A stretch of 64,000 nucleotides of DNA, from contig JAPWHL010000012.1 in NCBI GenBank assembly GCA_027214255.1, positions 1-64,000 on the forward strand, in the 5' to 3' direction. Positions 12,448 to 37,369 of the stretch are shown here, in pieces. Position numbers and translations under genes: made by a program. Position 1 is the stretch's first letter, and each line of letters opens with the position of its first letter. Origin of the DNA: Roseovarius aestuarii. Its GTDB lineage: Bacteria; Pseudomonadota; Alphaproteobacteria; Rhodobacterales; Rhodobacteraceae. Under the pieces are notes generated by a model that was given only the letters and a program-made list of their open reading frames with translations, made no database searches and had not been told where the DNA came from.

Positions 12448-13464
12448 ATGAAACAGCTCTACTCAGCAACTGCAATCGCGCTTTGCATTGGCTCTTCGGC
12501 CTTTGCCGAAGGCAAGCTCAACCTTTACGTCTGGTCCGAATCCATCGCGCCAGAGCTCATCGAAAAATTCTCGCAAGAGAATGATGTCGAAGTCAGCGTC
12601 GATGGGTATACATCAAACGAAGACCTTCTGACTAAGCTTCAGGCTGGCGCGTCAGGGTACGACATTGCCGCCCCTTCCCAGCATTTTTTGCGCATCATGA
12701 TCGACGAAGGCTTGATCCAGAATTTCGGCGCTAACAAACTGGCCGCCTATGATGCCATCGACGAACGCTGGCGCAACCAGTGGTGGGACGAAACCCAAGA
12801 GTATTCTATCCCGGTTGCTTACGGCACTGCGGGCTTTGCCATCAACACAAATGAATATGACGGCCCCACAGACAGCCTGAAATATTTTTTTGAACCCGAT
12901 AGCGAGCTGTCTGGCAAAATCGCCATGCTGTCCTATCCCGACGAAGTTGTCGGCGCGGCGCAGCTTTACCTTGGCGTGCCTTTCTGCTCCGAGAATCCTG
13001 ACGAAATGAAGCGCGTTCTGGACCTGCTTATGGCCCAGAAGGAACATGTGGCAGCCTATTCCTCGGACAATATTGCTGGTCGTCTCAGCTCGGGTGAGGT
13101 GACTGCTCATTTCTGGTGGGACGGTGAAGTGGTCAAAGCAAAAGCCGGCGGTGCTCCGGTGGACTATGCCATGACCAAGGAAGGTATCGTGGGGTGGATT
13201 GACAGCTTGGTCATCCCCAACGGCGCCCCAAATCGCGAGAATGCGATCAAATTCATCGAATTTATGTCCACGCCAGAAAACGCGACAACCCAGATGAATT
13301 TCTATGCCCATTCTTCACCGGTCAAGGTGATCGAGTCCGAGATGAAGTACACAGCAGAAAACGCTCCGGCACTTTTTCCAGACGTACCTGTAGAAATGTC
13401 TCGGACATGTTCGCCTGCCGCTCAGGATCTGGTCACACGCGTTTGGACACAGCTTCTGCAGTAA
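12448..13464 (+). CDS. ABC transporter substrate-binding protein (PotD-like)
   Basis: A 338-residue periplasmic binding protein. A signal peptide (MKQLYSATAIALCIGSSAFA) precedes the mature start EGKLNLYVWSESIAPELIEKF, the usual opening of PotD-type proteins. YDIAAPSQHF, AYGTAGFAINT and GEVTAHFWWDGE are further family landmarks. Polyamine-binding members use acidic and aromatic residues for the amine; several Trp and Asp residues are available here, but the ligand cannot be fixed by eye. GGAGAATGAA gives the ribosome site. A GC-rich hairpin follows 9 bases after the stop and should lower downstream expression relative to this gene. Confidence 0.88.
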   Translation: MKQLYSATAIALCIGSSAFAEGKLNLYVWSESIAPELIEKFSQENDVEVSVDGYTSNEDLLTKLQAGASGYDIAAPSQHFLRIMIDEGLIQNFGANKLAAYDAIDERWRNQWWDETQEYSIPVAYGTAGFAINTNEYDGPTDSLKYFFEPDSELSGKIAMLSYPDEVVGAAQLYLGVPFCSENPDEMKRVLDLLMAQKEHVAAYSSDNIAGRLSSGEVTAHFWWDGEVVKAKAGGAPVDYAMTKEGIVGWIDSLVIPNGAPNRENAIKFIEFMSTPENATTQMNFYAHSSPVKVIESEMKYTAENAPALFPDVPVEMSRTCSPAAQDLVTRVWTQLLQ

Positions 13465-26639: not shown

Positions 26640-29489
26640 TTATTCGGCCGCTTCTTCGTAATCCGACATGGGCGGACATGTGCAGACCAGGTTTCGGTCA
26701 CCATACACGTTATCCACGCGATTGACCGACGGCCAGTATTTGTCCACCCGAAACGCGCCAGGAGGAAAACACCCTTGTTCGCGCGTATAGGGCCGGTCCC
26801 AATCACGCACCAAATCCTCCATCGTATGCGGAGCATTCTTCAACGGATTGTTTTCTGGGTCAATTTTGCCATCCTCAATCGCGCGAATTTCCTCCCGGAT
26901 TGCCAGCATGGCATCGCAAAACCGGTCCAACTCGGCTTTGGTCTCGGACTCGGTTGGCTCAACCATCAGCGTACCCGACACCGGGAAGCTCATCGTAGGT
27001 GCATGGAACCCATTGTCGATCAGCCGCTTGGCAATGTCATCCACCGTCACATGGGCCGAGGTGTCAAAGGGCCGTGTGTCTAGAATGCATTCATGCGCGA
27101 CCCGCCCGTTTTCGCCCTTGTAAAGAACATCATATGCCCCTTCCAACCGCTTGGCGATATAGTTGGCGTTCAGGATTGCAACACGCGTGGCTTGCGTCAG
27201 ACCTTCACCACCCATCATCAGGATATATGCCCATGAGATCGGCAAAAGCGACGGCGACCCGAACGGTGCGGCGCTGACTGGTCCTTCTTCGCCACCTGTG
27301 TGAGGATGGCCCGGCAAATGAGGGATCAGATGCGCCTTGACGCCAATCGGCCCCATGCCGGGTCCGCCGCCGCCATGTGGAATGCAAAACGTTTTGTGCA
27401 GGTTCAGGTGGCTGACGTCCCCGCCCAAATCGCCGGGTCGTGACAGGCCGACCATCGCATTCATATTGGCCCCGTCAATATAAACCTGACCACCGTGTTC
27501 ATGGGTGATCTTACAGACATCGATCACGGTTTCCTCGAACACACCATGGGTACTGGGATAGGTGATCATGCAACCGGCCAGCGCGTCCGAGTGTTTCTCG
27601 GCCTTGGCGCGAAAATCGTCCATGTCGATATCGCCGCGGGCATTGCATTTCACCGGCACGACCTTCCAGCCGACCATATTGGCGCTGGCAGGGTTGGTGC
27701 CATGCGCATTGGTCGGAATCAGGCAAACGTTGCGGTCCCCTTGCCCGTTTGCACGGTGATAGGCCGCAATCGAAAGCAAGCCAGCATATTCCCCCTGCGC
27801 ACCGGAATTGGGCTGCATCGAGATCGCATCATAGCCGGTGATCTGGCACAGCTTGTCACTCAGATCGCCAATCAGTTCGCTATACCCTTCGGCCTGATCC
27901 TTGGGCACAAACGGGTGCATACGCGAAAATTCCCGCCAGCTTACAGGCATCATCTCTGCCGCCGAGTTCAACTTCATCGTGCACGACCCCAACGGGATCA
28001 TTGCGCGATCCAGCGCCAGATCGCGGTCAGCCAAACGGCGCATATAGCGCATCATCTCTGTCTCGGCCCGGTTCATGTGGAAAATCGGGTGCGTCAGGTA
28101 CTCTGATGTGCGGTGCATGTTTTCAGGCACTCGGTACTGTGCCACATACGTGTCATCGGCTTGGAAAATACCAAAGGCGCGCCAGACGGATTCGATATTC
28201 TCAGGGCGCGTGCATTCATCGCACGTGATCCCGATCCGGGTTTCACCCACGCGGCGCAGGTTAATTCCCTCATCCACAGCGGATTTCAGAACAGCTGCCT
28301 GCAAGGGGCCGACATCGACGGTGATCGTATCGAAGAAAACATTTGGATCCACCTTGAACCCGGCCTTTTCTAGGCCGTTTGCCAAACGCACGGTCTTGCG
28401 ATGGATTCGTTGCGCAATTGCTTGCAAACCCTTGGGCCCGTGAAAAACCGCATACATCGACGCCATGACAGCCAGCAGGGCCTGTGCGGTGCACACGTTG
28501 CTGGTGGCCTTTTCGCGGCGAATATGCTGCTCGCGGGTTTGCAGGGACAACCGGTAGGCCCGATTGCCGTGGCTGTCGATGCTCACCCCCACAATCCGGC
28601 CCGGCATCGCGCGTTTATAGGCATCACGACAGGCCATATAAGCCGCATGCGGTCCACCATACCCCAAAGGCACGCCAAACCGCTGGGTGCTGCCGACGGC
28701 AATATCGGCATCCATCGCGCCTGGCTCTTTCAGCAGGGTCAGGGACAAGGGATCGGCACTGACAATCCCGATCGCACCATGCGTATGCAGATCAGCAATA
28801 TGCGAGGTAAAGTCACGCACATGGCCATAGGTGCCCGGATACTGGAACAATGCGCCAAAGACTTTGTCGGCTTCCATCTTGTCGGGGTTGCCGACAATCA
28901 CTTCAATCCCCAAAGGCGCAGCGCGGGTCTGAACCAATGCGATGTTCTGCGGGTGGCAATCACGATCAACAAAAAACGCCTTGGCCTTGGATTTGGCCAG
29001 ACGCTGCGCCATCGTCATTGCCTCGGCACAGGCCGTTGCCTCGTCCAGAAGCGACGCATTGGCAATCTCCAACCCGGTCAGATCACTGACCATCGTCTGG
29101 AAATTCAGCAAGGCTTCCAAACGGCCCTGACTTATCTCGGGCTGATAGGGCGTATAGGCCGTGTACCAAGCAGGGTTCTCGAAAATATTTCGCTGAATTG
29201 CGGGCGGCGTGACCGTGCCGTGATAGCCCTGCCCGATCAGACTGACCAAAACCTTGTTTTTCTGCGCGGTCTTGCGCATGTAATGCAGCAACTCGCGCTC
29301 GGATTTGGGCTTGCCAAATTTTAACGGGGCCTTCTGGCGGATCGCCTTTGGCACGGTCTGGTCAATCAACTCGTCAAGGGATTTGACGCCCAGAACCTCC
29401 AGCATTCCGGCCATTTCGTCGGGCGAAGGGCCGATGTGGCGGCGGTTGGCAAAATCATAGGGCAGATAGTCGGTGGGCTCGAACGCCAT
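26640..29489 (-). CDS. gcvP: Glycine dehydrogenase (decarboxylating), P protein
   Basis: A 949-residue PLP enzyme that decarboxylates glycine and passes the aminomethyl group to lipoyl-GcvH. The PLP-lysine motif [17 protein letters not shown] is in the C-terminal half, and the N-terminal half carries [10 protein letters not shown] and the paired catalytic fold, as in other full-length P proteins. ATG 29489 has GGAG seven bases upstream; an in-frame upstream ATG at 29558 would add 23 residues without family match. It is the third gene after gcvT and gcvH, under the glycine riboswitch. A hairpin-rich repeat lies in the 166-base gap to gcvH and may set its expression relative to gcvTH. Confidence 0.96.
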
Positions 29490-29562
29490 GTCACACTCCA
29501 TCAGGTTCAGGTCAACAAACGGGCCGCCAACACGCCCCGCCTGACTTTCGTCACTCAATCTT

Positions 29563-29636
29563 TCATCTTTCCCGAAATACCTCCGCCGGAGGCGTAAATT
29601 TCTTGCTCAAGAAATTTAAGGTTTTTGCAAAAACCT
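29563..29636. repeat. Two/three-hairpin intergenic repeat, copy A
   Basis: TCATCTTTCCC leads into hairpin CCTCC-GCC-GGAGG (29580-29592), hairpin AAATTTCTT-GCTC-AAGAAATTT (29596-29617) and, in this copy only, hairpin AGGTTTTT-GC-AAAAACCT (29619-29636). It lies 3' of gcvH on the minus strand. Copy B at 35651-35706 has the same layout with changed but still paired stems. Confidence 0.65.
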
Positions 29637-29655
29637 GTCCGGCGCGGCGCTTGAA

Positions 29656-30015
29656 TCAGCCGATGAATTTCAGATAAGCGGCCTCGTTCATCAGGTCATC
29701 CATCTGACTGGGGTCACTGGGCTTGATCTTGAAAAACCACCCATCCCCAATCGCGTCTTCGTTAACCTTGCTGGGGGAATCGGCCAACACCTCGTTCACT
29801 TCGATGATCTCGCCATCGATCGGGGCCAAGATGTCGCTGGCTGCCTTGACGCTCTCGATCACGACAACCTCGTCATCCTTGGCAACTTCTGTGCCCGCTT
29901 CAGGCAGTTCGACGAAAACAATGTCGCCCAGCTGCTCGGCTGCGTGCTCGGTGATACCGACCACAATCAGACCGTCTTCTTCGCGCAGCCATTCGTGTTC
30001 TTCTGTGTACTTCAT
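29656..30015 (-). CDS. gcvH: Glycine cleavage system H protein
   Basis: A 119-residue lipoyl carrier that shuttles the aminomethyl intermediate between GcvP, GcvT and dihydrolipoamide dehydrogenase. The lipoylated lysine is in the motif [12 protein letters not shown], with the usual opening [11 protein letters not shown]. Length is normal for the family. It starts 24 bases after the gcvT stop with an AAGGGAGATCC ribosome site. An interspersed hairpin repeat follows its stop. Confidence 0.97.
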
Positions 30016-30039
30016 CCTTGGATCTCCCTTGGTATTATA

Positions 30040-31176
30040 TCAACGTTTGAAATTTGGCGTGGTGAAAGGCAGTGCCGCCACTTGTGCAGGCTGTCGTTTA
30101 CCGCGCACCTCGCCGTAAACTTGCGTGCCCGGCGCGGCCAGATCGGCAGGCACATACCCCATCGACATTGGGCCTTCGATCGTTGGGCCGAACGCCCCCG
30201 AAGTGATAGTGCCAATGGCCTCGCCCCCTTCGGCGCCGGCAAACAGCACCGTCCCTTCGCGCATTGGCGCACGTCCGTCGGGGCGCAAGCCAACACGACG
30301 GCGCGACGCGCCTTCGATCAGTTGGGGCAGGATGACATCAGCTCCGGGAAAGCCGCCCTCGCGCTTGCCACCTGCGCGGCGCACCTTCTGGATCGCCCAC
30401 CCCAGCGCAGCCTCGGCCGGGGTGGTTTTGGTATCGATATCATGACCATAGAGGCACAAACCGGCCTCCAGCCGCAAAGAATCGCGGGCACCAAGGCCAA
30501 TCGGCTCGACCTCTTCCAGCGCCAGCAATGCGCGCGCCAAGGCAACTGCATCCGTGTCTGCGACAGAAATCTCATAGCCATCTTCACCAGTATAACCGGA
30601 ACGTGAGATCACCACATTGATACCGGCAATATCGACATCACGGGCGACATCCATAAACTTCATATCCGTCACAGCCGGTTGCAGCCGGGCCAGAGCCGTT
30701 TCCGCCGCAGGCCCTTGCAAGGCCAACAAAGCGCGATCGTCCAGCACCTCGATATCGCAGCTATCAGAAAGATGCGCCTTCATATGTTCGATATCGGCCT
30801 GTTTGCAGCCCGCATTCACTACAACAAACAGATGGTTGCCCAAATTGGCCAGCATCAGATCATCAAGAATTCCACCGGCGTCATTCGTAAACATCCCATA
30901 GCGTTGGCGCATCTCGCCCAAACCTGCCACATCCACCGGCACCAATCGTTCCATGGCCAGCGCGGCCTGCTCGTATTCACCCGATTTAGGCCAGACAACC
31001 ACCTGCCCCATATGGCTTACGTCAAACAGACCGGCCTTATTCCGTGTATGCAGATGTTCTTTCATCACGCCCAAAGGGTATTGGACTGGCATTTCATAGC
31101 CGGCAAAGGGCACCATTTTTGCCCCCAGTTCGATATGCAATGCGTGAAGCGGTGTTTGGCGCAGCGGTTCGCTCAT
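30040..31176 (-). CDS. gcvT: Glycine cleavage system T protein (aminomethyltransferase)
   Basis: A 378-residue tetrahydrofolate-dependent enzyme that transfers the methylene group from the H protein to form 5,10-methylene-THF. GAKMVPFAGYEMPVQY, FDVSHMGQV and the GYTGEDGYEI segment with the folate-site acidic residues are typical. First gene of gcvT-gcvH-gcvP; AGGTAGGG lies 9 bases before its ATG. The tandem glycine riboswitch at 31260-31421 is in its leader, so the operon should be induced by glycine. Confidence 0.96.
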   Translation of the reverse strand: MSEPLRQTPLHALHIELGAKMVPFAGYEMPVQYPLGVMKEHLHTRNKAGLFDVSHMGQVVVWPKSGEYEQAALAMERLVPVDVAGLGEMRQRYGMFTNDAGGILDDLMLANLGNHLFVVVNAGCKQADIEHMKAHLSDSCDIEVLDDRALLALQGPAAETALARLQPAVTDMKFMDVARDVDIAGINVVISRSGYTGEDGYEISVADTDAVALARALLALEEVEPIGLGARDSLRLEAGLCLYGHDIDTKTTPAEAALGWAIQKVRRAGGKREGGFPGADVILPQLIEGASRRRVGLRPDGRAPMREGTVLFAGAEGGEAIGTITSGAFGPTIEGPMSMGYVPADLAAPGTQVYGEVRGKRQPAQVAALPFTTPNFKR

Positions 31177-31259
31177 CAGGATCCCTACCTAATTTGCGCC
31201 GTTTGATCTGGAATGTATCAATCCGGCATCGGTTAAACGCAGGCAAATGCCCTGCGCCT

Positions 31260-31421
31260 CGATGCCCCCTCTGTCCTTTCGCCTGAGATCGCTATCCCTT
31301 CGGCGCCCCGAGTCCTCGGGGTCTCTCCAGAGTTTTGACAATCGTAAAGGTCCCTTTGCCTGAGAGTTTCCGGGGCGGTTGCTCCTTCGGCACTGGCATG
31401 TGCCAGTTCTCCCGATACGAT
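31260..31421 (-). promoter_or_regulatory. Tandem glycine riboswitch
   Basis: Reading the minus strand from 31413, the first aptamer shows GGGAGAAC, GCCGAAGGAGCAA and CTCTCAGGCAAAGGGACC. The second shows CTGGAGAGACC, GCGCCGAAGGGATAGC, and ATCTCAGGCGAAAGGACAGAGG. These are the conserved blocks of two glycine aptamers in series. It ends about 85 bases before the gcvT start codon. Glycine-responsive activation of gcvTHP is the established role of this arrangement. Confidence 0.93.
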
Positions 31422-31476
31422 CTTTGTACACCCTAGTATGCCGTGCGCGCATCGGCAAGTCGGATAAATGCCGCTG

Positions 31477-31929
31477 CTACGCGATTTCCAGGCATGGCTC
31501 GGGTGTCAACATGTCAATCAACGTCGAGTTTCCACAGACCAGCGCTTCCAACGTCTCTTCATCCAGGCGTGCATAAAATGCTTCCAGCGCGTCGGCGATT
31601 GCGTGGCGCAAACGACAGGCCGAGACCAGCGGGCAGGTGTTGTCACCATCGGCAAAACACTCAGCGACCGGGAAATTTTCCTCAAGCACGCGAAAAACTC
31701 TGCCAATCACGATGTCCCCTGCCGGCATGCCCAGCATAATACCACCGCCACGGCCACGCTGCGTGCTCAGAAACCCCAGTTGCGCCAAGTGATTAATGAT
31801 CTGGGCAAGGTGGCTTTCGGAGGTTTTGCATCGTTTGGCGACTTCTGCCTTGGTCACCAGCCGTTGATTATTCACAGCGCAGTACATCAAGACCCGTATC
31901 GCAATATTGCTTCGTTTGGTAATTCGCAT
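31477..31929 (-). CDS. Rrf2-family Fe-S regulator, NsrR-like
   Basis: A 150-residue winged-helix regulator. MRITKRSNIAIRVLMYCAV opens the DNA-binding domain. SHLAQIINHLAQLGFL and RGRGGGIMLGMPA match NsrR, the nitric-oxide-sensing repressor whose iron-sulfur cluster is destroyed by NO. Three cluster cysteines are spaced C-x7-C-x5-C (CFADGDNTCPLVSAC). E. coli NsrR has a shorter first spacing, so RirA-like or other Rrf2 identity is not excluded. I chose ATG 31929 because it matches the family start; the frame continues upstream without similarity. An FNR-type box lies 65-78 bases upstream. Confidence 0.82.
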   Translation of the reverse strand: MRITKRSNIAIRVLMYCAVNNQRLVTKAEVAKRCKTSESHLAQIINHLAQLGFLSTQRGRGGGIMLGMPAGDIVIGRVFRVLEENFPVAECFADGDNTCPLVSACRLRHAIADALEAFYARLDEETLEALVCGNSTLIDMLTPEPCLEIA

Positions 31930-31993
31930 TGGGCGCGGCCCTCTAATGTCACTTGCACGAAAATCACTGTGCCCGCAAAATAGGTGCTGCATT

Positions 31994-32007
31994 TTGACAT
32001 AGATCAA
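31994..32007. promoter_or_regulatory. FNR/NnrR-type box
   Basis: TTGAC-ATAG-ATCAA has the TTGAN-N4-NTCAA form recognised by FNR/CRP-family oxygen and NO regulators; TTGAC as left arm is common for NnrR/Dnr-type sites. It lies between the divergent NsrR-like gene and the gamma-glutamylcyclotransferase-like gene (12 bases before its ATG, so more likely to serve the NsrR-like gene, or to repress the other). Confidence 0.45.
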
Positions 32008-32018
32008 GAAGAAACATC

Positions 32019-32597
32019 ATGACCTCTCTGATCAGCTCTTGGTTTTTTGGCTATGGCAGCCTTGTCAATCGCGCCACGCACCACTTTCAGAACGCTGAGT
32101 GCGCACGTTTGAAAGGCTGGCGGCGGGTGTGGCGCCACACAGATTTGCGCCCAGTTGCCTTTCTCACGGTCGTGCCCGACCCCGAGAGTGAGATCAGCGG
32201 CCTGATCGCTCCGGTCCCGGACGGAGACTGGGCCGCACTGGACCTGCGCGAAGGCGCATATCGGCGCACCCCTGCCACCCATCAGGTGACGCATCCCCTA
32301 CCCTATCGCCCCCAGATCGCGGTCTATGCCATCCCCGAAGACCGCCACGGGCGCCCGAACTGCGCGCATCCGGTGCTGCTAAGTTACATCGACGTGGTCG
32401 TTCAGGGGTATCTGACTGAATATGGCGAGGCCGAAGCCCAACGATTCTTTGATACGACCAGCGGCTGGGATGTGCCCATCCTCGATGATCGGGCCGCGCC
32501 ACTTTATCCGCGCCACAGAAAGCTCAGCCCGGATCAGCGCGATTTTGTCGATACCGCGCTGGCCCGCCTGCCCGTGCGGCGACAACCCTCTCGTTAG
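32019..32597 (+). CDS. Gamma-glutamylcyclotransferase-like protein
   Basis: A 192-residue protein with the AIG2/ChaC-type fold. The motif WFFGYGSLVNRAT binds the gamma-glutamyl moiety, and DLREGAYRRTPAT holds the acidic residue that acts as general acid/base in gamma-glutamylcyclotransferases. Such enzymes release 5-oxoproline from gamma-glutamyl amino acids or glutathione. Substrate here is not fixed; ChaC-type glutathione cleavage is only one option. The gene is divergent from the NsrR-like gene and convergent with gltX, with no obvious operon partner. Confidence 0.75.
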   Translation: MTSLISSWFFGYGSLVNRATHHFQNAECARLKGWRRVWRHTDLRPVAFLTVVPDPESEISGLIAPVPDGDWAALDLREGAYRRTPATHQVTHPLPYRPQIAVYAIPEDRHGRPNCAHPVLLSYIDVVVQGYLTEYGEAEAQRFFDTTSGWDVPILDDRAAPLYPRHRKLSPDQRDFVDTALARLPVRRQPSR

Positions 32598-32651
32598 CTA
32601 CCGGCCAAATCCGAATGGCGCAACAGTTCGCAAAAACTGCCGCGCGCGACG

Positions 32652-33977
32652 TTAACTGCGCGCGCGGATCACTTGCAGCAATGGCAAGACCTGCGCCATG
32701 TCAGGACCATGTGCCTGTCCGGTCAACGCCTTGCGCAATGGCATGAATAGGCCGCGCCCCTTGCGGCCGGTGGCCTCTTTGACGGCCGCGGTCCATGTGC
32801 CCCAGCTGGAATCGTCCAACGGCCCTTCGGGCAGCATCGCCATCGCTTGGGCGATGAAATCACGGTCTTCGTCCTCGATCACCGGTTCGGCCCCGTCGCG
32901 GAACAATGTCCACCAGCCCTCTAGATCGTGCAGCGTGGTGATGTTGTCGCGCGTCACCGCCCAGAACAAGGGGGCCTGCGCTTCGGGTACACCCAATGCC
33001 GCAATCCGCTCTGCCACGGCGTCATAGTCCAGCCCTTGCAAATGCCGCGCCGTTAGCGGGAACAGGTCCGCAACGTCGAACTTTGTCGGGGCCGATCCAA
33101 ACCGGCCAATATCAAACCCGTCAATCAACGCACCCATGTCAGCGCGCATCTCGATCGGATCAGCAGACCCCAACCGCGCCATCATGCTAAGCAGTGCCAT
33201 CGGTTCAACGCCCTGCTCGCGCAAGTCTCGCAGCGACAGCGTGCCCAGCCGCTTGGACAGGGATTCCCCTTGCGGCCCCGTCAGCAGTGAGTGGTGGGCA
33301 AAAGACGGCACATTGCCGCCCAGCGCCTGAATGATCTGGATCTGTGTTGCCGTGTTGGTCACATGGTCCGAGCCCCGCACGACATGTGTCACGCCCATTT
33401 CGGTATCATCCACGACCGACGCCAAGGTGTACAAAACCTGCCCGTCACCCCGAATCAGCACCGGATCACTCACCGAAGCCGCATCAATGCTGATGTCGCC
33501 CAGCACGCCATCATTCCATTCAATACGCTGCTGGTCCAGTTTGAACCGCCACACACCCGCGCCGCGCTCGGCGCGCAACGCATCCTTTTCAGCATCAGAC
33601 AACGCTAGGGCCGCACGATCATAAACCGGCGGACGCCCCATGTTCAGTTGTTTCTTGCGCTTCAGGTCCAATTCGGTCGGGCTTTCAAAAGCCTCGTAGA
33701 AACGCCCCATCGCGCGTAGCTCATCCGCCGCTGCATGATAGCGATCCAGCCGCTCGGACTGACGCTCAACGCGGTCCCACGTCAGGCCCAACCATTCCAG
33801 ATCCTGTTTCAGCGCGTCAACATAGGCTTCTTTGCTGCGCTCGGGGTCCGTGTCATCAATACGCAAGATGAACGTTCCGCCGGCCTTGCGGGCTATCAGA
33901 TAATTCATCAGCGCAGTGCGCAGATTGCCAACATGGATGTATCCGGTGGGTGATGGGGCAAATCGGGTGGTGGTCAT
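32652..33977 (-). CDS. gltX: Glutamyl-tRNA synthetase
   Basis: A 441-residue class I aminoacyl-tRNA synthetase that charges tRNA-Glu (or, in some bacteria, tRNA-Gln). The HIGH-type motif is APSPTGYIHVGNL at the N-terminus. The KMSKR-type motif reads GESLSKRLG, with Ser in place of the usual first Lys. ATG 33977 (MTTTRFAPSPTG) has AGGAG at the right distance; an upstream in-frame ATG at 34115 adds 46 unrelated residues. Many alphaproteobacteria carry two gltX genes, so this may be one of a pair. A long GC palindrome (32640-32667) spans its stop codon. Confidence 0.92.
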   Translation of the reverse strand: MTTTRFAPSPTGYIHVGNLRTALMNYLIARKAGGTFILRIDDTDPERSKEAYVDALKQDLEWLGLTWDRVERQSERLDRYHAAADELRAMGRFYEAFESPTELDLKRKKQLNMGRPPVYDRAALALSDAEKDALRAERGAGVWRFKLDQQRIEWNDGVLGDISIDAASVSDPVLIRGDGQVLYTLASVVDDTEMGVTHVVRGSDHVTNTATQIQIIQALGGNVPSFAHHSLLTGPQGESLSKRLGTLSLRDLREQGVEPMALLSMMARLGSADPIEMRADMGALIDGFDIGRFGSAPTKFDVADLFPLTARHLQGLDYDAVAERIAALGVPEAQAPLFWAVTRDNITTLHDLEGWWTLFRDGAEPVIEDEDRDFIAQAMAMLPEGPLDDSSWGTWTAAVKEATGRKGRGLFMPLRKALTGQAHGPDMAQVLPLLQVIRARS

Positions 33978-34249
33978 GGTTAGGCTCCTAGGGCTCGCGC
34001 GGGGTCTGTCACAGCGCTGCCCTTTTGTCCAGAATGCCGCGCACAGACCAAAGTGTCGACGTATCCCAAAATCTGTCCCAGATTCCTCCCAGGGCATCTG
34101 ACCACTCAACGACATTGCACAAAATCCGCGCGATTTAGCGCCGTTTTACAAACCACCGGCGCAATTCACCTCACCTTTACGTGAAACCCACCGTACATTG
34201 GCGAATCCTGCGCTATATTGCCGCCTAGTTCATAATCAAGGAGAGCCCG

Positions 34250-35173
34250 ATGCCCGCCCCCCTCATGACCCGCCGTACTTTGTTGGCCAGCGCCGCTGCC
34301 CTGCCCATCGCCGCCACCCTGCCAAAGCCCGCTCAGGCCACGGCCCCCATGTTAGGCGGGGCTTTGCCCCCGTTTCGGCGGGTCACGCTGGGCAGTTTTG
34401 AGGTAACCACATTGCTGGCCGGAAGCCGCTCGGTTCCCGACCCGCACAGCATTTTCGGACTGAACGTCGACGACACCACCTTTGAAGCGGCGGCCACCGC
34501 AGCCCTGCTGCCCACGGATGCGGCACAATTCTACTTTACCCCCACCGTGATCAACACCGGGGCGCAGCTGATCCTGTTTGACACCGGGCTGTCCCCCGAC
34601 GGCACCACCGCCGCGCTGGAACAGGCAGGATACAGCGCCAATCAGGTGGATGTCGTTGTCCTAACCCACATGCACGGCGATCATATCGGCGGGCTGATGC
34701 AAGGCGATACGCCAACCTTCGCCAACGCCAGCTATTTCACCGGTGCCATTGAATTCGACGCCTGGGCCAAGATGGAAAACGAAAACTTCGACACCAAGAT
34801 GCGCCCCTTGGCGGAACAAACCACAATGCTGTCCCCCGAACAGGAGGTGACAGCAGGCATTACCGCACTCAAAGCATTCGGCCATACACCCGGCCACATG
34901 GCCTACCGTGTCGAAAGCGATGGGCGCGCCCTGATTCTAGGCGCGGATTTTGCCAACCATTACGTGTTCAGCCTGGCCCACCCCGATTGGGAGGTAAAGT
35001 TCGACATGGACAAACCCGCCGCCGCCGCCACGCGCCGTCAAATGCTGGATATGCTATCCGCTGACAAACTGCCCTTCGTCGGCTATCACATGCCGTTCCC
35101 CGCCTTTGGCTATGTCGAAACCGCAGGCGATGGCTTTGCCTATGTTCCAGAAAGCTATCAACTCAGCCTTTAA
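34250..35173 (+). CDS. Secreted metallo-beta-lactamase-fold hydrolase
   Basis: A 307-residue protein with a twin-arginine signal (MTRRTLLASAAALPIAATLP, cleavage near AQA). The metallo-beta-lactamase metal site is THMHGDHIGG (HxHxDH), followed by a later His in GHTPGHMAYR and an Asp in LGADFANHY. The fold hydrolyses lactones, thioesters or other esters; lactonase-like members share the form, but the substrate is not readable. AAGGAGAGCCC gives a strong ribosome site. It precedes a small zincin gene in the same direction after 39 bases. Confidence 0.85.
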   Translation: MPAPLMTRRTLLASAAALPIAATLPKPAQATAPMLGGALPPFRRVTLGSFEVTTLLAGSRSVPDPHSIFGLNVDDTTFEAAATAALLPTDAAQFYFTPTVINTGAQLILFDTGLSPDGTTAALEQAGYSANQVDVVVLTHMHGDHIGGLMQGDTPTFANASYFTGAIEFDAWAKMENENFDTKMRPLAEQTTMLSPEQEVTAGITALKAFGHTPGHMAYRVESDGRALILGADFANHYVFSLAHPDWEVKFDMDKPAAAATRRQMLDMLSADKLPFVGYHMPFPAFGYVETAGDGFAYVPESYQLSL

Positions 35174-35212
35174 AGCATTCAAAACCGGGCGGCGACACTC
35201 CATATAAGGTGC

Positions 35213-35611
35213 ATGACGCCGCTCGATCCTCACTCACTCGACGCTATAGAAGCCATGGCACGCGACACCATCGCGGAATTTCCCGCGCCCTTCGCCCCCC
35301 TTGCCGCGCCGGTGATGCTGCGGGTCGCGGATTGGCCGGACGCAACCCTGCTGCGCGATTTGAACATTGATGATCCGCTTGATTTAACCGGTCTTTACGA
35401 CGGCATTCCGCTGACCCAGAAATCAGTGTCTGACCCGGCACCGCTGCCCGATACGGTCTGGCTGTTTCGTCAGCCCATTCTGGATGAACTGGCCACGCGC
35501 GACGGCATCACATTGCAACAACTGGTGGCCCATATCACCGTGCACGAGTTCGCCCATCACTTCGGCTGGTCCGACGACGACATCGCAACAATCGACCGCT
35601 GGTGGGAATGA
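35213..35611 (+). CDS. Minimal zincin-like metallopeptidase family protein
   Basis: A 132-residue protein with the zinc signature HEFAHHFGWSDDDI (HExxHxxxxxxD), which defines the small possible-metallopeptidase family formerly DUF1025. Most members are about 110-140 residues with no signal peptide and unknown substrate. The upstream half is hydrophobic-acidic without other motifs. It follows the metallo-beta-lactamase-fold gene after 39 bases. A hairpin repeat lies between it and the convergent nadE. Confidence 0.8.
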   Translation: MTPLDPHSLDAIEAMARDTIAEFPAPFAPLAAPVMLRVADWPDATLLRDLNIDDPLDLTGLYDGIPLTQKSVSDPAPLPDTVWLFRQPILDELATRDGITLQQLVAHITVHEFAHHFGWSDDDIATIDRWWE

Positions 35612-35650
35612 CCTCTGCGCACAGCTTATCAAAGCGCGGGGCATCCCCAT

Positions 35651-35706
35651 TCATCTTTCCCCCAAAATACCTGCGCCGCAGGCCCAGATTTTTCTGCGAA
35701 AAATCT
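35651..35706. repeat. Two-hairpin intergenic repeat, copy B
   Basis: TCATCTTTCCC, then hairpin CCTGC-GCC-GCAGG (35670-35682) and hairpin AGATTTTTC-TGC-GAAAAATCT (35686-35706). Relative to copy A (29563-29636), stem bases differ on both arms so that pairing is kept. It runs into the nadE stop codon (35707-35705) on the minus strand and follows the zincin gene on the plus strand, so it may act as a terminator for both. Confidence 0.65.
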
Positions 35707-37369
35707 ATTCGCTTCCCGTGTCCCGCCACCTGTTTGCGATGGGATAACGACGGTCCAGCCAAAACGCCGCTTCGCTAAGCCGTGTACCCGGCGCGGACTG
35801 GAAACGTTTGTATTCACTGATATATAGCAAATGTTCGACCCGTTTGGCATCCTCGCGGGTATAGCCGGCTTTGATGCAATCAGTGATGCTGCCATCGCCA
35901 TCCACCAATATCTCCAGAATACCATCCAGCACCGGATAATCAGGCAACGAATCGCTGTCTTTTTGATCCTCGCGCAGCTCGGCCGAGGGCGGCTTGTCGA
36001 TCACACGGGGTGGAATGACTTCGCCGGCCGGGGCCAGCATCCAGTCGCGGTGATTGGCATTGCGCCAACGGCACATCTCAAAGACACGGGTTTTGTACAT
36101 GTCCTTGATCGGATTATAGCCCCCCGCCATGTCGCCATATATCGTGGCATAGCCAACGGCCACCTCGGATTTATTGCCCGTGGTCAACAGCATCTCGCCA
36201 AATTTGTTGCTCATTGCCATCAACAACAGTCCACGCAGGCGGGATTGGATGTTTTCCTCGGTCACGTCTGGCTGGGTATCTGCAAAGACCGGAGCCAGTG
36301 TCGCCGTGATCGCCGCGCGGCCCTGTGCAATTGGGACGGTGTCGTAATGCACCCCCAATGCCTCGGCCACAGCCCGCGCATCCTCCAGCGACCCTTGGGA
36401 TGTATATTCGGACGGCAACATGACACAGCGCACATTCTCTGGGCCCAGCGCATCCGACGCGATGGTGGCGACAATCGCCGAATCAATTCCGCCCGAAAGT
36501 CCCAGCAGCACCTTTTTGAACCCGGTTTTGCGCAGATAGTCGCGCAACGACAGAACCATTGCGTGATAATCCTGCTCGAACGCATCCGGCAAATGCGCCA
36601 ATTCGCCGGGAATCGCGCGCCACCCGTCCGGGCCGTTTTCCAGATCCAGATGAGCCACGGCCTCGGTCATTAATGGCATTTGCAGCGCCAAGGCCCCGCC
36701 GGGATTCAGAACGAAACTGCCACCGTCAAACACCTGATCGTCCTGTCCGCCGACAAGATTCAGATAGATCAGCGGCAGGCCCGTCTCAATCACGCGGCTC
36801 ACCATCAGGGTCTGGCGCGTGTGCAGCTTGGCCCGGTGATAGGGCGAGCCATTGGGCACCAACAACAGTTGCGCACCGGTTTCGGCCAGTGTTTCGGGCA
36901 CGTCTTGATGCCATGCATCCTCGCAGATCGGGCTGCCGATGCGCAGCGGGCCAACAACATATGGCCCTGCGACGGGGGCCGCCCCGTATAGGCGAACCTC
37001 GTCAAACACCGTTTCGTTGGGAAGGTGGTGCTTCATAACACAGGCCCGCACCTGACCGCCCGACAGAATCCAATACGCATTGAACAGCTCGGCACCTTCC
37101 AGCGCCGGGGCACCGATGGCCATCGCCGGGCCGTCGGCGCATTCGACCGCCAATTGATGCACCATCGCAATTGCGTCTTGATGAAACGCAGGCTTCATCA
37201 CCAAGTCCTGAGTATTGTACCCGGTCAGGAACATTTCAGGCAGGGCCACCATGTCGGCCCCTGCTGCCTTTGCCTGTGCCCACGCGTCGCGCGCCTTGGC
37301 GGCATTGCCTTTGATATCGCCTACAGAGGCATTCAGTTGGGCAAGTGTCAGTCGAAACCGGTCGGCCAT
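35705..37369 (-). CDS. nadE: Glutamine-dependent NAD+ synthetase
   Basis: A 554-residue two-domain enzyme that amidates deamido-NAD. The N-terminal nitrilase-like glutaminase domain shows the Glu in ALPEMFLTGYN, the Lys in CVMKHHLPN and the Cys in GSPICEDAWH. The C-terminal synthetase domain has the PP-loop LGLSGGIDSAIVATIA and the ATP-site segment GNKSEVAVGYATIYGDM. ATG 37369 (MADRFRLTLAQLN) follows AAGGAGAGG and fits the family; the frame upstream to 37453 has no similarity. It is divergent from the MORN gene. Confidence 0.95.
   Translation of the reverse strand: MADRFRLTLAQLNASVGDIKGNAAKARDAWAQAKAAGADMVALPEMFLTGYNTQDLVMKPAFHQDAIAMVHQLAVECADGPAMAIGAPALEGAELFNAYWILSGGQVRACVMKHHLPNETVFDEVRLYGAAPVAGPYVVGPLRIGSPICEDAWHQDVPETLAETGAQLLLVPNGSPYHRAKLHTRQTLMVSRVIETGLPLIYLNLVGGQDDQVFDGGSFVLNPGGALALQMPLMTEAVAHLDLENGPDGWRAIPGELAHLPDAFEQDYHAMVLSLRDYLRKTGFKKVLLGLSGGIDSAIVATIASDALGPENVRCVMLPSEYTSQGSLEDARAVAEALGVHYDTVPIAQGRAAITATLAPVFADTQPDVTEENIQSRLRGLLLMAMSNKFGEMLLTTGNKSEVAVGYATIYGDMAGGYNPIKDMYKTRVFEMCRWRNANHRDWMLAPAGEVIPPRVIDKPPSAELREDQKDSDSLPDYPVLDGILEILVDGDGSITDCIKAGYTREDAKRVEHLLYISEYKRFQSAPGTRLSEAAFWLDRRYPIANRWRDTGSE

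Follow-up and report, generated by a model that had tools for sequence, protein, structure and literature searches.

A short, asymmetric sequence element lies at gene ends in Roseovarius aestuarii and many other Rhodobacteraceae, and its tail is spelled consistently within each of several genomes. Two copies are found in the window, by which we mean the first 64,000 nucleotides of contig JAPWHL010000012.1 (GenBank assembly GCA_027214255.1). On the minus strand they read AGG-TATTT-N3/N5-GAAAGATGAA, and about 50 copies, mostly perfect, are present in the genome, with none in the reversed control. The element is repeated and sharply conserved, it is placed at gene 3' ends, its orientation is biased only where a hairpin is attached, its tail occurs in dialects, and orthologous sites show that the tail was altered in place. 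What is conserved is the sequence core; a hairpin directly before the core is an optional addition.

The sequence-only reading of the window had described a repeat of two hairpins in two copies, each 3' of a minus-strand gene. Both copies are present: the core pattern TATTTN0-6GAAAGATGA matches twice in the window, against a mean of 0 across 100 dinucleotide shuffles. The statement that such a repeat, in a position 3' of genes, also occurs in other Rhodobacteraceae was borne out, but TCATCTTTCCC and AAATACC, taken there as flanking words, are the conserved core itself. The further copies on which that reading depended are supplied by the genome. It also named no described function. None was found in the open papers of PubMed Central (PMC), which is weak evidence of absence since most subscription journals lie outside it, and the available portions of PMC8632094, PMC12306157, PMC3630211, PMC1852404, PMC5107571 and PMC2267715 contain no description of the element.

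Core copies in the R. aestuarii genome

The pattern TATTTN0-10AAGATGA matches 71 times in the genome and never in the control. Seventy of these matches, all but C121, were read. Three matches inside genes that were treated as chance (L033, L053 and L073) and two near-identical copies on short contigs (L061 and L062) were dropped. The 65 copies kept comprise 50 of type A and 15 of type B. Type A has the consensus AGG-TATTT-NNR-GAAAGATGAAAG between near-random flanks (n = 50); its AGG and final AAG, both outside the search pattern, are strongly conserved. Type B has GGA or GCA ahead of TATTT, and 11 of its 15 copies have the tail CCAGAAGATGA. Type B was left out of the context count described below, and counts across several genomes use 49 type-A copies from R. 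aestuarii because the pattern used for those counts misses the second window copy, which has a long spacer.

When up to three mismatches were allowed in the core with its spacer fixed, 34 copies were perfect, nine had one mismatch, one had two and three had three, with no control matches. This sharp spectrum indicates that the element is not a decaying repeat. A core with a fixed 6-nt gap gave no match. A search for the tail 13-mer alone, with two letters free, returned 38 matches, all reading AAAG and all inside core copies.

Three near-identical copies resembling type B (L056, L061 and L062) lie near the edges of the short contigs C51, C61 and C64 and perhaps belong to a region present in several copies, for example an rRNA operon.

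Tail dialects across genomes

The spelling of the tail is specific to the genome, a feature invisible from one window. The R. aestuarii tail is GAAAGATGAA, and relatives mainly have GAACAATGAA, GAACGATGAA or GCAAGATGAA. The copy sets of R. aestuarii and of the genomes G004 and G007 begin from a pattern that fixes AAGATGA, so the claim of dialects rests on the free letters and on freer patterns. Under that same pattern the tail is GCAAGATGA in all 66 copies of G004 and GAAAGATGA in 51 of 52 copies of G007. With four tail letters free, GAACAATGAA was found in 57 of the 69 copies read from G003, and GAACGATGAA in 33 of 47 from G010 among the matches listed. The tail 13-mer with two letters free matched 62 times in G003, where 53 matches read AACA and 59 lay inside listed core copies.

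A survey of 149 genomes, one per genus, found at least eight ATGAA-type copies in 29 genomes and at least one in 60, with at most two control matches per strand. Among the matches listed, G179 has GAACAATGAA, G173 has GAATAATGAA or GAATGATGAA, G055, G086 and G105 have GCAAGATGAA, and G189 has GAAAGATGAA with one exception. The exact hairpin head CCTCCGGCGGGAGTATTT is present in 43 of 100 genomes, again one per genus, and absent from the control; R. aestuarii, whose head is AGG and not GAG, has no exact match to it. Behind this constant hairpin-TATTT head, the tails of other genera are often genome-specific and quite different. Among the matches listed, these are GAAANTCGAA in 26 of 27 copies from G046, CAATAAGAAA in 12 of 14 from G108, CCAGAAAGAAG in all five from G132, AAAGAGCAA in all six from G067, and AAGAGATGAAA in G050, for which eight of 33 are listed.

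In 16 genomes from outside the Rhodobacteraceae there were 0-25 matches, whose tails were mixed, and as many as 14 control matches, which we read as chance. As to a link with phages, a single IMG/VR contig (L193) carries a core at positions 13139-13159, near the contig end, which suggests host flank.

In-place change of the tail at orthologous sites

Flank comparison of 49 copies from R. aestuarii with 69 from G003 identified 10 orthologous sites. The tails differ at nine of them, and there each copy has the main spelling of its own genome. Both flanks support six pairs at five loci; in all six the tail differs, and in four the presence of the hairpin differs as well. Between the ATPase and permease genes (named by eye) of an ABC-transporter locus, TATTTTAAGAA..ATGAAAGG is kept in R. 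aestuarii, G003, G010, G006 and G016. The two tail letters there read AG, CA, CG, CA and CA, while the TAA spacer and the sequence just beyond the tail are kept. The core at this operon (L018, L280, L293, L294 and L295) is in antisense orientation in all five genomes.

These sites bear on whether the element is a mobile repeat, similar to repetitive extragenic palindromes and bacterial interspersed mosaic elements (REP/BIME) or to miniature inverted-repeat transposable elements, that spreads by copying. Like such repeats, the element is intergenic and forms inverted pairs, and in one congener it occurs as four tandem copies with a 92-bp period. Copying of the whole element would have copied the spacers too, yet 26 kinds of spacer are found among 49 copies, and the change of tail letters in place favors a co-evolving reader over a mobile repeat. 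In addition, no Y1 transposase (PF01797) was found in the R. aestuarii genome, by a search whose control gave matches in 5 of the 14 known genomes, E. coli among them, and no target-site duplication of 3-9 nt was found in 78 hairpin-free copies (40 from R. aestuarii and 38 from G003). We consider spread by copying highly improbable, the least likely of the explanations weighed here.

The tandem array itself (L292; G016:C1:309500-311000) has four core copies in one dialect and lies in a spacer between two called genes.

Genomic context and orientation

The genomic context was analyzed for 148 copies: 49 type-A copies from R. aestuarii, 69 of 76 from G003, 15 of 66 from G004 and 15 of 52 from G007. 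Genes were called with our own simple codon-usage gene finder, not taken from annotation, and 146 of the copies could be classed. The baseline of 83 motif-free spacers comes from the window and G003 loci only. Compared with this baseline, copies avoid divergent spacers (12/146 copies vs 24/83 spacers, p = 1e-4) and are more frequent in convergent spacers (44/146 vs 13/83, p = 0.017). When a hairpin is present, the gene before the copy is on the same strand in 54 of 65 cases (p = 6e-8). Among copies without a hairpin no orientation is clearly favored: the upstream gene is on the same strand in 48 of 81 (p = 0.12), and 29 of the 53 in tandem spacers are co-oriented. Matches inside called genes are few (4/70 in R. 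aestuarii, three of which were treated as chance, 1/69 in G003 and 1/15 in G004).

Plasmids were searched with a query that carried the hairpin. Eight regions were examined, of which five have an annotated upstream gene, two have no upstream gene annotated and one is unannotated. In all five regions with an annotated upstream gene, the copy is preceded by a gene on its own strand and followed by a convergent one; two of the five represent a single locus from two species of Leisingera.

Close pairs of copies are mostly tail to tail, with 8-22 nt between the tails among the matches listed. In G003, nine gaps are shorter than 100 bp, compared with 0.15 expected; eight of these pairs are tail to tail and one is head to head. 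The head-to-head pair is common to R. aestuarii and G003.

Sites for a chromosome-organizing or segregation protein, placed at gene ends because promoters are avoided and with no role in termination, would account for several of these features. The number of copies (up to 130 per genome), their spread along the G003 chromosome (Kolmogorov-Smirnov p = 0.12), the lack of clear orientation bias in hairpin-free copies and dialects such as a protein-DNA pair would have are all consistent with it. The attached hairpins are not, as they stand on the head side and in terminator orientation in 54 of 65 copies, and we regard a purely organizing role as unlikely. A replichore-skewed motif similar to the FtsK orienting polar sequences was considered and rejected, since the strands look mixed in the G007 list, by eye only.

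The adjacent hairpin

The sequence-only reading took the hairpins as the main unit of the repeat. This did not hold: across four genomes of the genus (R. aestuarii, G003, G004 and G007), a hairpin adjoins the core in 66 of 148 type-A copies and is lacking in 82. The criteria for a hairpin, which were chosen after the copies had been read and then applied uniformly, were CCTNC(C/G)GC, CCCC..GAG, or a perfect inverted repeat of at least 7 bp. When stems that end at the head were tested against shuffles, the signal was weak, with p ≤ 0.05 in 6 of 49 type-A copies from R. aestuarii, 1 of 15 from G007 and 2 of 15 from G004.

Where the hairpin is present, the structural claim is right. Its compensatory change was supported at one position of the GC stem, pair 4:10, which is GC in four, UA in two, AU in one and CG in one of eight R. 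aestuarii hairpins with a 5-3-5 layout and is paired in all of them; the remaining four stem pairs are invariant. These eight are drawn from 10 copies of the CCTNC-type hairpin, L027 and L042 having been left out for their other loop lengths. The covariation score of the GC stem was 0.300, which 1 of 500 shuffles reached; the number of pairs with two-sided change was one, which 364 of 500 reached. The minimum-energy folds weigh against the claim, as neither is the described structure (z = -1.78 for the first window copy and -2.49 for the second). In the first, both AT hairpins form and the GC arms pair elsewhere; in the second, the AT hairpin loses its 5' arm to pairing with the tail. Folding by itself does not select the structure. 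Neither copy was among the hits of a terminator scan of the window, which numbered 13, the same as the mean of 13.0 for shuffles. A GC stem-loop directly before a U-tract (5-bp stem, UAUUU) is visible by eye in both window copies.

The spacer between gcvH and gcvP was compared among loci. The gcvH end was found by pattern in only 24 of 110 loci, and 21 of the 110 could be judged. With heads recognized by hand-made patterns, and with some loci being the same species twice, an element-like head is present in 10 of the 21 loci where the genes are adjacent. In 8 of these 10 it is preceded by an inverted repeat that is AT-rich and varies in sequence.

An ordinary weak intrinsic terminator, in which a short GC hairpin and UAUUU stop transcription and the shared downstream sequence is incidental, would explain why hairpin copies follow same-strand genes, why one stem pair shows compensatory change, and why CCTCCGGCGGGAGTATTT recurs exactly in so many genera. 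It would not explain the 82 copies that lack an adjacent hairpin under the criteria used, the strong conservation and genome-wide dialects of a tail that lies beyond the U-tract, or a hairpin whose presence differs in four of six orthologous pairs supported on both flanks. It too seems improbable as the full account.

A second 5' module, GGGGGCGCTGCCCCC-[variable stem-loop]-CCCCCGGAG or similar, stands before TATTT at L017, L051, L065 and others, and in G004 and G007 at L194, L207, L209 and L223. Its G-run might pair with one C-run or the other, in the manner of a structure with two states. At L042 and L066 a canonical-looking GC stem and T-run, seen by eye, lie some tens of nt before the core, which indicates that the core can be a second, later signal.

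The two copies in the window

Coordinates of the window copies and their neighboring genes are given in Table 1. On the minus strand both copies are laid out as one or two AT hairpins, the GC hairpin, TATTT and the purine-rich tail.

Table 1. Window copies of the element and the genes beside them
Feature	Positions	Strand	Remarks
Copy 1 core, AGGTATTT-CGG-GAAAGATGAAAG (head-spacer-tail)	29560..29582	-	0 mismatches vs genome-wide consensus
Copy 1 GC stem-loop, CCTCC-GGC-GGAGG	29580..29592	-	Shares its last three bases (AGG) with the core
Copy 1 AT-rich hairpin, 10-bp arms TAAATTTCTT...AAGAAATTTA	29595..29618	-	
Copy 1 second AT-rich hairpin, AGGTTTTTGCAAAAACCT	29619..29636	-	Direct reading; present in minimum-energy fold
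Copy 2 core, AGGTATTT-TGGGG-GAAAGATGAATG	35648..35672	-	Spacer 2 bases longer than usual
Copy 2 GC stem-loop, CCTGC-GGC-GCAGG	35670..35682	-	
Copy 2 AT-rich hairpin, AGATTTTTCGCAGAAAAATCT	35686..35706	-	First two bases within nadE stop codon (35705-35707); direct reading
gcvH, 3' end towards copy 1	29656..30015	-	
gcvP, next glycine-cleavage cluster gene	26640..29489	-	Start is ATG after 166-nt spacer from gcvH; named by reading protein
nadE (glutamine-dependent NAD synthetase), 3' end towards copy 2	35705..37369	-	Named by reading protein
Small ORF convergent with copy 2, HExxH motif (by eye)	35213..35611	+	Stop 36 nt from copy 2 tail

The position 3' of a minus-strand gene was confirmed for both copies, the genes being gcvH and nadE. 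Copy 1 is situated between gcvH and gcvP, and copy 2 is additionally convergent with the plus-strand open reading frame (ORF) that ends at 35611. The nearest named relatives of the GcvH protein are those of Roseovarius spongiae (88%) and R. nubinhibens (87%). Rfam covariance models gave no match at either copy with E values up to 1, and at gathering scores the whole window has only one tRNA and one glycine riboswitch. The riboswitch, at 31338-31424 on the minus strand, is upstream of gcvT, so that copy 1 lies inside a riboswitch-headed glycine-cleavage cluster.

Proposed function

We tentatively propose, at somewhat less than an even chance, that this is a gene 3'-boundary element in which an optional terminator hairpin and TATTT stand beside the docking site of a putative DNA-binding protein. 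It has four parts: an optional RNA stem-loop, GC or AT, usually after the gene that it would serve; a constant head, AGG or GAG followed by TATTT, which can function as a short U-tract; a small number of free bases; and a purine-rich tail of 12-14 nt with genome-specific spelling. The tail would be read as DNA by a sequence-specific protein that co-evolves with it. Once bound, this protein would halt or release RNA polymerase leaving a gene, from either side, and the hairpin with TATTT would aid release for the gene on the head side.

A trans-acting reader of DNA would best explain why hairpin-free copies are placed at 3' ends without clear bias, why the site is bipartite and asymmetric, and why the tail has changed in a coordinated way throughout the genome. 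The hairpin and TATTT in sense orientation suggest that transcripts of the gene on the head side are terminated there or protected at their 3' end. A roadblock-assisted terminator, with both its protein and its termination step putative, joins the two roles and is our best guess. Between gcvH and gcvP, we speculate that a partial stop or 3' protection might yield more GcvT and GcvH than GcvP.

Several observations weigh against this proposal. Only 29 of the 149 genomes have at least eight ATGAA-type copies, and 89 have none. Among the matches listed, G055, G089 and G136 carry two or more kinds of tail, G137, G084 and G080 are mixed, GCAAGATGAA and GAACAATGAA occur together in G016, and uniformity is only partial in G010 and G006. 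Two orthologous sites depart from the dialect of their genome: the G003 copy after gcvH keeps GAAAGATGAA, and the ABC-transporter copy of G016 is GAACAATGAA, though GCAAGATGAA prevails among the G016 copies listed. As a U-tract UAUUU is weak, and in G004 it is mostly followed by CGG. As to placement, divergent genes flank 12 of the 146 copies, and a few copies fall inside called genes. Finally, canonical terminators at facing gene ends, which are rare and uninformative, are not rarer near the core, being found at 5 of 61 ends for hairpin-free copies, 5 of 43 for hairpin copies and 5 of 115 without the motif.

A broader claim is more doubtful, namely that a hitherto undescribed gene-boundary system exists in Rhodobacteraceae in which fast-evolving, sequence-specific factors, one to three per genome, read a private tail beside a widely shared TATTT head and stop or insulate transcription in both directions at gene 3' ends. 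If true, each lineage would have its own terminator dialect. Repeated DNA words that occur in dialects are known chiefly among uptake sequences and recombination signals. Were a dialect to mark gene 3' ends, it would imply that dozens of sites co-evolve with a partner still to be discovered, which might be a sequence-specific factor for termination or boundaries, and this in a family of bacteria that is abundant. The strongest alternatives to the boundary element are a plain weak terminator, a chromosome-organizing site and an uptake label.

Comparison with known systems

The closest analogue is the dialects of DNA uptake sequences (DUS) and uptake signal sequences (USS). In published accounts, these sequences have dialects, inverted pairs and an association with terminators, and intragenic copies are common (PMC3630211, PMC1852404); they generally number 1,000 or more per genome (PMC1852404). 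The element here is likewise short and asymmetric, with species dialects, inverted pairs and a terminator-like setting, as a label for DNA uptake or packaging similar to those of Neisseriaceae and Pasteurellaceae would be. However, its copy numbers are far too low, with 46 ATGAA-type copies in R. aestuarii and no more than 130 in any of the 149 genomes. It also differs from the published sequences in lying almost wholly outside genes and in having a constant TATTT head with a free spacer. We therefore consider an uptake label very unlikely.

Intrinsic (Rho-independent) terminators resemble the hairpin copies, in which a stem-loop and a short U-rich run follow a gene. They differ from the element, which lacks an adjacent hairpin in 82 of 148 copies and carries conserved, genome-specific sequence beyond the U-run. 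Like REP/BIME elements with their REP-associated tyrosine transposases (RAYT), the element is an intergenic repeat that is sometimes found in inverted pairs. Unlike them, it has a non-palindromic, asymmetric core between near-random flanks, no Y1 transposase in the R. aestuarii genome, and few partly decayed copies.

In the roadblock terminators of eukaryotic RNA polymerase I (Reb1 and TTF-1 sites), a T-rich release element precedes a protein-binding site that the polymerase meets on its way. The layout of the element would match this arrangement, with TATTT as the release element and the tail as the site of a putative protein that would act in termination.

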